From the IMG/VR virus record IMGVR_UViG_3300021090_000052, positions 1-43,129 of that record: a stretch of DNA of 43,129 nt; one strand, given 5' to 3'. Position numbers and translations under genes: made by a program. A model generated the notes under the pieces. That model ran no database searches and was not told the origin of the DNA. It worked only from the letters and a program-made list of their open reading frames with translations. The stretch is from a virus. How positions within the stretch are numbered: position 1 is the first letter of the stretch; every line of letters begins with the position of its first letter. Shown piece by piece: positions 25,942-42,733 of this stretch.

Positions 25942-26889
25942 TCATTGGCTCACCGCGTACTGCCCCTCGAACTTCGGTAGCGTCCAGTTTCCGAGGGTCT
26001 GTAGTTTCATCCAGTGGGGAAGCGCCAGGCCAAAGGAGACAGGATACAGGCCGCGCTCCATGTCGCGCTTCACGGTGAAGGGGAATTGACCAGTGGCCGG
26101 GAGAACAGTGCCCGCGTTGTAGTGTGCGAGCGCTTGCGCCCCGGAGAGTGTAGATTTGTAAATGGCTGCATATTGCAAATTGCCGTTCAGTTGTGTTGAC
26201 GAACTGCCGCCGTTGTTTAAGCGAGCAATGTCAATGTCTTCCCCACATCCGGCAGCACCCGAGGTAGCAGTGTTTGTATCTCCCAACACGCCATTGAGAT
26301 AGAATTTCAAGGTGGTGGTCGACAAATTCCAAGTAGCGGCCAGGTAATACCATGTGTCGACCACACCGGGCGACAGGGTGCTTTTAGTGCAACTCATATA
26401 CGCCCCACCGCCGGTGTTTTGTACGCACATTTGCCCGGCTGGATCACCAACCTTCGCAAGCGCATATAGACGGAATGCGTGCTTCGTGCCGCCCGTAGCG
26501 GTGCTGTTCAATACGATTCCAGCGGCAGTACCATCCCCTCCATTGCCGTGAACCAAGGCCCACACCTCCCACGTCCAATCGTTTTTATCGAGGCCCATTG
26601 GGCAGCCTCCCAACCCCTCGACGTAGCGAGCATACTGCGTACTCCCGTTGAAGTTCACGGATTTTTTATTCAGCACCCCAGTACTGGCTTGGTCAAGTGA
26701 TGGTGATCCCGTGGTGGTGACGTCTTTTGCGGCGCAACCGCCGCCAGCTGTCGAGGCGAGCGTCGTGCCAGTTGTTTCTTGCATCTTGTACCATTGGCAC
26801 GGAGCATCAGCAGCGACGACCGATTCATAATCGGCCCGCGCCAGCGATGGCAACAGCAACGCGAGCGCGAGAAGCAGTCGAATCATCAT
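25942..26889 (-). CDS. LamG-like adhesin with signal peptide
   Basis: The protein has 315 residues. ATG 26889 overlaps the previous stop. Residues 1-19 (MMIRLLLALALLLPSLARA) are a clear Sec signal peptide. The mature part has a LamG/concanavalin-like pattern: VNFNGSTQYARYVEGL, WTWEVWALV, WYYLAATWN, LKFYLNGV and LNGNLQYAAIYKSTLS. Such domains bind sugars or proteins. It is probably a surface or fibre-associated adhesin. A cleavable signal on a protein in the virion module is unexpected. Confidence 0.7.
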   Translation of the reverse strand: MMIRLLLALALLLPSLARADYESVVAADAPCQWYKMQETTGTTLASTAGGGCAAKDVTTTGSPSLDQASTGVLNKKSVNFNGSTQYARYVEGLGGCPMGLDKNDWTWEVWALVHGNGGDGTAAGIVLNSTATGGTKHAFRLYALAKVGDPAGQMCVQNTGGGAYMSCTKSTLSPGVVDTWYYLAATWNLSTTTLKFYLNGVLGDTNTATSGAAGCGEDIDIARLNNGGSSSTQLNGNLQYAAIYKSTLSGAQALAHYNAGTVLPATGQFPFTVKRDMERGLYPVSFGLALPHWMKLQTLGNWTLPKFEGQYAVSQ

Positions 26890-29168
26890 GTCCCGTCCCC
26901 TACGCAAATCCACTGACCGCTCGCTTGATCGCGGCACGTATCGTGGTGGAATTGGCTACTAAGGGTGCGGGTCGTTCCGCTGTTGATCGCGTCGGTGCCC
27001 GGAGTCGGAGCGCGACCGGTGACGCAATGCTTGGTCCCGCTATCCACTTTGAAAACGTCGATGATCTCACCGGAGCCAGTAGCAGCGGGCAACGTGTAGC
27101 CGGTGTAGTCGCTGCTCGAGCCGCTCGTGCAATCGTAGATCCGCTTGCCCGGAATTGGCGTCGCGCTCGCGCTCATCGGGGACACGCCCGTAACGCTGAG
27201 TGTGCCGCTATAGGTAAAGTTAATCATCGGCGTAGCCGTAGGCAGTGGCGTAACTTCTGGAAGTTGTTGATAACGTGCATCAGCCTCGGCTAACGTAATT
27301 CCCTGAATCGGCTGCGAATTAGTCGTACTTTGAAGCACAATGTCATCTACGTACGCCGTGAATGTTCCACCCGATCCTTGAGGGTTGATGCGCAGTTCGT
27401 CAATCAGCGTACCAACAGGAATGGCGAATTGAACGATCGGAACTGCCACTAGTTGGTACGAGGTGCTCGTTCGAACGAAGCCATAGGATCCATTCTGAAT
27501 CGTTACAGCACTACCTTTTTGGATCCCGGCCAATCTAAGCGTGAGTACGAGTGAGCGTCCACTGTTCCATGTAACAGGTGCGATCCACACGTTGAGTTGC
27601 TGATAAGCAGCTGGGTCGATGGAGCTCGAACGGACCAACTTGGTAAAGTTATTCGCTGCAAGTGCTGTTCCCTTGATGTCCTTCGTACCCGTTCGTGGAT
27701 TACCAGTGTCAGCGCAAGCCCATCCCGTTCCTGGAGTGCAAGTCCACTCTGCATCTTCTAGATAGATGTCTTCGTTGGCTGCTCCCACTGGAGTCGCCGT
27801 GTTCGCTGTCACATAGGAGTGCGTGAGCAAGAGTTGAGTGCTCGGATCAAGCGACGGCGCAGTAGGCGGCCCACCTGGTATGCCAGTGATCTTCGTCGCC
27901 TGCGGCGCGGTGTCTACGATAATGTCGTCGATCCGGTCATCGGACACGTCGGCGGCATCGAGGGTCACATCAACAGCCGCACTTGTGTACTGCACTCCTT
28001 GAATCGAGTATGTGCAAGCAGAAACATTGTACACATAGCCAGTTCCCGACCAGGCCACACCGCATCCTGCAATCAAGAATGAGCCATCCGCGCCAGGTTG
28101 ACCCTGACCTCCTGGCGGGCCAGAAGGTCCAGAAGGTCCAGACGGACCAGAAGGCCCCACAGCACCAGCTGAGATGGTCGTTTGAATGTAGCTTTGCTGA
28201 GTGACGCCTTCGGTCGAAAGCGTGACGACGCTCGAAGAGTTGCCATTGAGAATCCGGCGTACCCACCACTTGAAAACGATACGGTCGTCAACCGCGAAAG
28301 GATGTGTACTCGCATCTGAGAAAGTGAACGTCTGGAGCGCGAAGCCCGTGTCGGTAAAGCCAGCACTTGCGCCTGTCCGAAGGAGCTGCTCTTTCGTCGT
28401 GACAGTAGAAGAAACCGTCTCCGCCGCAAGATCGTCGCTCAAAATGAGCGTGAGTGTTGTCGCCGCGACGGTCTGAACTGTGTAAGAGCCATTGTTGCTC
28501 ACGGTTCCGGTCACGGTAACTCGGGAACCGTTCGTGAAGCCATCCACAGTGAAGTCACACGCTCCACAAGTGATCGTGTCGGCAACACCAGCGCCACTCT
28601 CATTGTACGTCAATGAAGTTGCTCCCTCGGTCGCCACGTCGCCAGTTGTCTGGTAGCGGAAAAGGTCGGTTTTGACCTGACCTGTGGGAGGGCCACTTGA
28701 AACGTGCGCGTAGACGTACCGATACGCCGTTCCTGCTGGCAATGCGGAGACGTTCGGCTCACCTGCCGCCGTGATGAAGCCTTGCGCGTAGACGTAGGCA
28801 TTCAATGTGGGAACGGTGATTGCAATGTCGCTCTCGGAGTTGGCGGACGGAAGCGCCGAGGCGACCTTGTAGACGCTCACGTCCGACGTGACGCTGTTCT
28901 CGGGATAGTAGATCCGACCTGCATTTCCGCCGTCTACGCCAGTGTCACCAGTCGGACCAGTTGGTCCTGTCGTGTCTGCCCCAGTCGGTCCAGAAGGGCC
29001 ACTTGGTCCAGTTGGTCCAGTCGTGGCCGTACCTGTTGGACCTGCTGGTCCGGTCGCTCCTGTGGAACCTGCACCACCCCCTGCACCAAAGAACCCATCA
29101 CCGAAAGCATAAGAGCCAGCGAGCAGCGCAAGGAGTGGCGTAAGCAGTAAGCAACGACGTGCGTTCAT
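26886..29168 (-). CDS. collagen-like repeat protein with signal peptide
   Basis: The protein has 760 residues. I chose ATG 29168 after GGAGG. The start MNARRCLLLTPLLALLAGSYA is a signal peptide. Two Gly-X-Y blocks follow: one near 30-75 (GPTGPSGPSGPTG) and one near 330-360 (VGPSGPSGPSGPSGPPG), typical of phage trimeric fibre shafts. Between and after them are beta-rich segments, a galactose-binding-like part near 480-620, and a TPLPTATP linker. It is likely a tail fibre or host-surface adhesin. Confidence 0.7.
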   Translation of the reverse strand: MNARRCLLLTPLLALLAGSYAFGDGFFGAGGGAGSTGATGPAGPTGTATTGPTGPSGPSGPTGADTTGPTGPTGDTGVDGGNAGRIYYPENSVTSDVSVYKVASALPSANSESDIAITVPTLNAYVYAQGFITAAGEPNVSALPAGTAYRYVYAHVSSGPPTGQVKTDLFRYQTTGDVATEGATSLTYNESGAGVADTITCGACDFTVDGFTNGSRVTVTGTVSNNGSYTVQTVAATTLTLILSDDLAAETVSSTVTTKEQLLRTGASAGFTDTGFALQTFTFSDASTHPFAVDDRIVFKWWVRRILNGNSSSVVTLSTEGVTQQSYIQTTISAGAVGPSGPSGPSGPSGPPGGQGQPGADGSFLIAGCGVAWSGTGYVYNVSACTYSIQGVQYTSAAVDVTLDAADVSDDRIDDIIVDTAPQATKITGIPGGPPTAPSLDPSTQLLLTHSYVTANTATPVGAANEDIYLEDAEWTCTPGTGWACADTGNPRTGTKDIKGTALAANNFTKLVRSSSIDPAAYQQLNVWIAPVTWNSGRSLVLTLRLAGIQKGSAVTIQNGSYGFVRTSTSYQLVAVPIVQFAIPVGTLIDELRINPQGSGGTFTAYVDDIVLQSTTNSQPIQGITLAEADARYQQLPEVTPLPTATPMINFTYSGTLSVTGVSPMSASATPIPGKRIYDCTSGSSSDYTGYTLPAATGSGEIIDVFKVDSGTKHCVTGRAPTPGTDAINSGTTRTLSSQFHHDTCRDQASGQWICVGDGT

Positions 29169-42137: not shown

Positions 42138-42733
42138 GTTGGAGTCGCCGTTGGTGTATTCGTTGCTGTCGCTGTCGCTGTCGCTGTCGCTGTCGCTGTC
42201 GGTGTATTTGTTGATGTCGGTGTGACCGTTGGAGTCGCCGTCGAGCAGGTACAGCCAAGACAACAATTCCAATCTGCACCTTCTGCAAAAGCAAAAGTAC
42301 CATCTGCTGATGGCGTGTCAGCCGCGCAAGGGCTCAAAGGGCTACAATCATCACAGTAGACGATACTTCCAGCGATGGGTGTAGGCAACGCTGTGAAAGC
42401 GTAGTGAGGAATAGAGAAGGGAACTAGTGTTGGCACAGGTGTAGGAATGTTCGCGAATGCGAGATTGGCGGAACCATCTGTAACCACAACCTGTCCATTT
42501 GTGCCGTCCCCTGTCGGCAACTTGAATGTCACAGATGTTGGCACCGTTGCAGGGCCGATCAAACCGATATAGTTCGTTCCTCCTCCCGTAGCGCGGAATC
42601 GAATCGCAGGAATGAAAGTCTTGATTCCCGAGAGAATCGTCTGGTCATGCGTGTCATCAAGCAAGATGAACGCCACGGCAATCGTAGCTACAACTAGAAT
42701 CGAGATGATCGCGTTTCGGAGTGCTGTTTTCAT
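42134..42733 (-). CDS. membrane-anchored protein with Thr-rich tail
   Basis: The protein has 199 residues. An N-terminal hydrophobic helix (AIISILVVATIAVAFILL) is an anchor or uncleaved signal. A beta-rich middle part has TSVTFKLPTGDGTNGQVVVT, often seen in phage fibre proteins. A Cys-rich stretch (YCDDCSPLSPCA, CCLGCTC) precedes a long Thr-Ala/Thr-Pro tail coded partly by a hexanucleotide repeat. The topology suggests an exported surface stalk. It lies within the nozzle-interrupting block. Confidence 0.55.
   Translation of the reverse strand: MKTALRNAIISILVVATIAVAFILLDDTHDQTILSGIKTFIPAIRFRATGGGTNYIGLIGPATVPTSVTFKLPTGDGTNGQVVVTDGSANLAFANIPTPVPTLVPFSIPHYAFTALPTPIAGSIVYCDDCSPLSPCAADTPSADGTFAFAEGADWNCCLGCTCSTATPTVTPTSTNTPTATATATATATATNTPTATPT
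42165..42200 (-). repeat. hexanucleotide repeat, six copies
   Basis: Six perfect copies of GCTGTC (plus strand) encode alternating Thr-Ala in the tail of the 42134 protein. Gain or loss of units would keep the frame and change tail length. Confidence 0.75.

Follow-up and report, generated by a model that had tools for sequence, protein, structure and literature searches.

Six late genes of an uncultured tailed phage from an environmental source encode proteins that are predicted to leave the cytoplasm through the host Sec system. The window analysed here is the linear IMG/VR record IMGVR_UViG_3300021090_000052 in its whole length (43,129 nucleotides, positions 1 to 43,129), and the genes, named by their left-hand coordinates, are 42134, 41937, 41219, 29165, 26886 and 25942, each headed by a Sec-type signal peptide or anchor (Table 1). 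Tailed phages are understood to build the whole virion in the cytoplasm, and export is anticipated chiefly of lysis, exclusion and moron proteins. The reading we favour, with a probability of about 0.6, is that the six products, several of them of fibre or adhesin type, would be exported to the periplasm and act outside the cytoplasm. In addition, exported tail-spike and fibre proteins of a similar kind are encoded by dozens of other environmental phages, a sign that the production of fibre-type proteins may, in some phages, take place outside the cytoplasm.

The initial annotation had assigned signal peptides or anchors to these genes, with 42134 listed as probable. The real starts were taken from direct inspection of start/stop overlaps and ribosome sites. 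All six ATG codons are well placed and mostly translationally coupled, so that the signal peptides would stand at the true N-termini; these starts differ from the mechanical open reading frame (ORF) starts, yet all six hydrophobic segments are retained and no start lies downstream of one. The ATG codons of 42134 (at 42733), 41937 (at 42137, giving the 66-amino acid (aa) product MRKIIWIVVATWLLCPRSTTA), 26886 (at 29168, with GGGAGG upstream and overlapping 29165) and 25942 (at 26889) lie in ATGA overlaps, while that of 29165 (at 29509) follows the strong ribosome site GGGAGGAAGT. Gene 41219 starts at 41959, or at 42007 with an identical hydrophobic core, and its ribosome site is weak; the two alternative starts result from ATGATGACTTTGAAA, present twice around this point (from 42007 and from 41959; region 41937-42010). 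Cleavage-like ends can be recognised in 25942 (ARA|D), 26886 (SYA|F), 29165 (LYA|R), 41219 (TFA) and 42134 (AVA). Signal peptides were scored with an untrained, rule-based procedure that considers n-region charge, an uncharged hydrophobic core and small residues at -3 and -1, and whose background was measured. Among the called genes of the window (simple longest-ORF rule, with the 66-aa gene 41937 scored apart) it flagged only these genes and one internal start in a membrane gene of the lysis region. The background amounted to 7 flagged genes out of 1335 in other loci, mostly those of stabilization-gene relatives, and to 9 out of 926 in 80 loci of capsid relatives, with copies of this phage accounting for three of the nine. 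With ORFs and starts in place and a background of only 0.5-1%, the initial assignment was borne out, 42134 included as signal peptide or anchor. Sec export of the six proteins is well supported in silico, whereas cleavage, disulfides, periplasmic retention, site of action and function are inferred from sequence.

Cysteine content is independent evidence for export of the six proteins. Their mature parts hold 31 cysteines in 1571 residues (1.97 per 100 aa), against 8 in 5276 residues (0.15 per 100 aa) in the other 14 virion-module proteins of this phage, a 13-fold enrichment (Fisher p = 1e-13) of the kind expected for folding in an oxidising compartment; the 1694-aa protein at 30748 has no cysteine at all. 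The initial annotation had noticed cysteine pairs in several of the proteins; there are ten mature cysteines, mostly in close pairs, in 26886, six in 25942, five within the 45-aa mature peptide of 41937 and two in 29165.

A wider class of proteins was recovered through a four-cysteine domain. The product of 42134 carries the motif YCDDC....PCA, and the corresponding DNA pattern was found in 49 IMG/VR stretches, a few of them by chance. A domain of about 45 aa (FANLGTPANGTxxYCSDCTIANPCAGSGTGAxAKRLNGVWVCN, with the signature YCxDC...PCA...GxWxC) unites the genuine matches and lies mostly at the exact C-terminus. Comparison of 42134 with class members gave E-values of 5e-5 to 0.01, its copy being divergent and followed by a tail of about 64 residues; the domain was not found in 41937, 41219, 29165, 26886 or 25942. 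Counting genome and phage-record matches, the class comprises 44 proteins, which is a lower bound because the loci were found via the motif. The scorer recognised a signal peptide in 31 of the 37 complete members, and 22 of these 31 show xx[AGS]|Q-like cleavage ends, compared with 12% of control genes. A second pattern, in which the first three cysteines were not required, returned 15 stretches and thereby added five members; each of the five has the cysteine motif or one close to it, and the two that are complete start with a signal peptide. Cysteine-free versions of the domain were absent from the fetched loci, although two of the search scripts used patterns that may well have been too strict for them. 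A slightly stricter motif matched four contigs, one of them prophage-like, in 257 Gb of bacterial genomes; the motif is therefore virus-enriched (49 IMG/VR stretches versus four genome matches), bearing in mind that IMG/VR contigs may include bacterial DNA. No family centred on the C-terminal domain was found when ten members were compared with Pfam and ten with PHROGs, although several of the scanned members match tail spikes or fibres in their central parts, including pectate-lyase-type spikes. Searches of the open-access literature gave no description of exported fibre-type phage proteins or of this class.

The genes around class members match portal/adaptor, capsid, tape-measure, baseplate, tail-fibre and endolysin families, which places the class in the virion modules of phages with several tail types. 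Fourteen of 120 neighbours were also flagged as exported, a few of which may be membrane proteins, against under 1% (about 0.7%) in controls. Exported class genes often come in runs of two to five, with five in a row in locus L286, and the phage record ctLpZ231 encodes a member of 1253 aa and, behind it, another exported protein. The sole convincing phage record with the motif derives from an environmental sample, with no host. Two virion modules, those of contigs G001 and G013, are near-complete. Of ten G001 module proteins tested, the exported one alone matched a spike or fibre; in G013 the sole fibre match belongs to the exported, domain-bearing protein, and three more exported genes adjoin the presumed adaptor. 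This pattern favours the view that the exported proteins are the fibres themselves, with the caveat that an absent PHROG match does not prove the absence of another fibre. In L233 (8390-11673), L249 (7066-8837) and L252 (3291-6478), exported paralogs with a common mature N-terminal region lie in tandem pairs, and one paralog of each pair carries the cysteine domain. A further cysteine-domain protein, with a weaker signal-peptide call, adjoins a pectate-lyase-like gene in Nitrospira moscoviensis (L260, 4849-5652), in the bacterial chromosome and outside any obvious prophage.

The left part of the window contains genes for DNA polymerase, primase and a ParB-methyltransferase, and the minus strand carries the virion-lysis operon in which the six genes are found. 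A near-identical strain contig, L001 (IMGVR_UViG_3300018059_000029; 99.6-99.99% identity), extends 5.8 kb beyond the window and encodes there the major capsid protein (Pfam Phage_capsid_3, E-value 1e-77) and an SU10-type adaptor. These two genes and the P22-gp10-like stabilization protein of the window mark the phage as podovirus-like by sequence. Among the relatives with annotation are Rhizobium, Microcystis and Methylophilales phages. Searches of viral contigs with single proteins (39870, 25942, 30748 and 29165) returned only the near-identical strain contig, and tblastn against phage records gave no match for 26886, 29165 and 41219 and one short match for 25942. Less than 1% of the approximately 2,260 genes scored in related loci were flagged as exported, and a trait general to this podovirus family was rejected on this basis.

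Table 1. Features of the virion-lysis operon discussed in the text
Position	Strand	Predicted feature	Supporting observation
42730..43128	-	Split-off N-terminal part of the stabilization (gp10-like) protein; 139 aa in L001	
42134..42733	-	199 aa: signal peptide/anchor (1 to ~21-26), phage tail-fibre domain (~43-117), four-cysteine YCDDC...PCA...WNC domain (~118-158), Thr-rich stalk	
42165..42205	-	6-bp tandem repeat, 6.8 copies, coding for the Thr-Ala stalk of 42134	Stalk two residues longer in L001
41937..42137	-	66 aa: signal peptide, short Cys-rich mature peptide	ATGA overlap with 42134
41219..41959	-	246 aa: signal peptide, mature part without recognised family	
39870..41192	-	Core of P22-gp10-like stabilization protein, without ~50 N-terminal residues of homologs	phrog_3287, E-value 2e-34
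29525..30748	-	Conventional tail fibre without signal peptide	phrog_4900 tail protein, E-value 1.6e-10
29165..29509	-	114 aa: signal peptide, small two-Cys protein	Strong ribosome site
26886..29168	-	760 aa: signal peptide, collagen-like repeats, fibre-type regions, paired Cys	PHROG tail-fibre and Pfam Collagen matches
25942..26889	-	315 aa: signal peptide, LamG/ConA-like lectin domain	Pfam Laminin_G_3, E-value 1e-10
25242..25553	-	Holin-like; first lysis-cassette gene after the exported genes	Pfam Phage_holin_6_1, E-value 3.5e-5, just below cut-off
24106..24444	-	Rz-like inner-membrane spanin	phrog_89, E-value 5e-5

The exported genes form two trios. The left one (29165, 26886 and 25942) lies between the 29525 fibre and the holin/spanin cassette, and the right one (42134, 41937 and 41219) between the adaptor and the stabilization protein, a slot that in Methylophilales phage Venkman, from the tail-tube to the stabilization genes, is occupied by tail-fibre and collar genes. 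The right trio divides the stabilization gene, which is fused in every homolog seen and split in the window phage and also in L001. Relatives of the 39870-41192 product are annotated as 'stabilization protein', and its alignment is offset by 49-71 residues for most of the homologs whose N-termini were aligned. The 42730 product, in its first ~44 residues, resembles the N-termini of fused homologs from six loci (35-58% identity). Since one gene begins like the fused proteins and the other lacks that very part, the right cluster appears to have been inserted into a virion gene and to have split it. An Rfam scan of the window gave no match, so that a known intron does not account for the split.

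With regard to the individual proteins, homology to fibre or spike families is seen in 26886 and in the domain of 42134, while 25942 shows LamG only. The tail-fibre PHROG matches of 26886 rest partly on its collagen-like repeats, and its Pfam Collagen score is under the family cut-off. No family was recognised for 41219, 29165 or 41937, nor any homolog for 41219. The fibre domain of 42134 (residues 43-117) is common in phages, where it belongs to fibres without a signal peptide, and the longer repeat in L001 indicates that the stalk behind it is variable in length between strains. AlphaFold predicted a helix (residues 2-26) and a beta region for 42134 with a moderate predicted local distance difference test score (pLDDT, 66), and no usable structure for 41219 alone (pLDDT 35). 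A frame of about 92 aa at 23682-23960 that overlaps the region behind the Rz-like gene, with many cysteines and a hydrophobic segment ending in LLCCACPG, may encode an outer-membrane spanin lipoprotein.

These results can be assembled into the following scheme. The Rz-like spanin suggests a diderm host, in which Sec export would end in the periplasm. The host Sec system would send the six late proteins into this compartment, where their paired cysteines could form disulfides, and the proteins would accumulate there while virions assemble in the cytoplasm, because they are translated together with virion and lysis proteins. Once holin, endolysin and spanin open the cell, the exported and virion pools would meet, and the exported proteins would then act as fibre-type proteins outside the cytoplasm. 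The likeliest single role, which we put forward tentatively, would be to join the released virion as extra or principal fibres; P22 tailspikes can be added to heads in vitro, a precedent for late joining. It is conceivable, if rather doubtful, that the receptor-binding fibres or spikes of some uncultivated diderm-infecting phages are themselves Sec-exported, disulfide-bonded periplasmic proteins and join the virion only at lysis, so that maturation of the virion would be completed outside the cytoplasm. The initial annotation had also interpreted these genes functionally. Its placing of the proteins outside the cytoplasm agrees with the evidence for export, and attachment of released virions or decoration during lysis is plausible. 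There is no support, however, for display on the surface of infected cells that are still alive: the six proteins showed no outer-membrane anchor, no autotransporter barrel and no cell-wall sorting signal, nor any lipobox when the sequences were read directly, and in a diderm host Sec export leads to the periplasm.

Several observations weigh against export of fibre-type proteins as proposed here. Six of the 37 complete class members have no signal peptide, which means that the four-cysteine domain can occur without export; in 41219 there is a single mature cysteine; and the N-terminus of 42134 may be an uncleaved anchor instead of a cleaved signal. No virion-attachment domain was recognised behind the signal peptides, relatives with 47-60% capsid identity are without the trait, and the phage possesses the 29525 fibre, so that the exported set need not be the receptor-binding proteins.

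This last point leads to the first alternative, a somewhat improbable one, in which the exported proteins would not be virion parts but free adhesins or depolymerases that act within the periplasm and later in the lysate by binding or cutting the receptors or exopolysaccharide of the host, and by masking or trimming receptors prevent superinfection or the trapping of progeny on debris. Besides the separate fibre, the pectate-lyase-type spikes with signal peptides among class members would fit such activity, as would T5 Llp, an exported, disulfide-bearing protein that blocks its receptor from the periplasm (PMC9586334), and bacterial WceF, an exported glycan enzyme of tailspike fold (PMC7949094). 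However, no other spike or fibre was recognised in G001 and G013, and up to five exported proteins per virion module, as in L286, are more than receptor masking needs. Both this free role and joining of the virion would fit the sequence data. A different origin, as morons captured from host surface-protein genes and serving the infected or lysogenic cell in aggregation or adhesion, unrelated to the virion, seems improbable to us: the right cluster does resemble an acquired insert, domains of LamG and collagen-like type occur commonly in surface adhesins, and exported morons such as lambda Lom are located in tail modules, but ATGA overlaps with neighbouring late genes tie the exported genes to the late operon and speak against a transcription unit of their own, no surface anchor is apparent, the fibre domain of 42134 is of phage type and the cysteine motif is enriched in viruses, not bacteria. 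Very unlikely, finally, is that the proteins are assembled in the cytoplasm and that their hydrophobic N-termini serve as virion helices for membrane interaction or trimer formation, for although the long helix modelled in 42134 could be a stem, the n-region charge, h-region, AxA or A|Q ends and cysteine enrichment make up a Sec export signature, and the fibres of other phages sharing the 42134 domain were not flagged by the scorer for such N-termini.

A recurring class of exported fibre- or spike-like proteins with a virus-enriched cysteine motif would revise the view of the compartments in which phage appendages can fold and work. It would also account for the production of disulfide-stabilised fibres and provide, in the motif, a sequence marker for further proteins of this kind. 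Ordinary tail fibres and spikes (pectate-lyase-type spikes, PHROG families) resemble the exported set in domain types, position in the virion operon and repeats, but are synthesised and assembled in the cytoplasm and lack the signal peptides and paired cysteines found here. Lambda Lom and similar morons are exported and encoded in the tail region, yet Lom-type proteins are outer-membrane barrels, in contrast with the fibre, collagen-like and LamG domains of this set. Each step of the scheme has a separate precedent, in T5 Llp, in secreted endolysins and in WceF. Llp, encoded beside the receptor-binding protein (PMC9586334), and Cor are likewise exported phage proteins, dedicated to superinfection exclusion; Llp is small, lipidated and directed to one receptor, whereas the proteins described here are large fibre- or lectin-type products without a lipobox, several in a row in a late operon. 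Signal-peptide endolysins, such as Lys44 of fOg44, and signal-arrest-release (SAR) endolysins are late phage proteins that use host Sec (PMC6116005), but they are lysis enzymes and not fibre-type proteins. WceF of Pantoea stewartii, an exported protein of tailspike fold that acts on exopolysaccharide (PMC7949094), is bacterial, exported by Tat and encoded in an exopolysaccharide locus, while the proteins of this class are phage-encoded, carry Sec-type signals and belong to virion modules.

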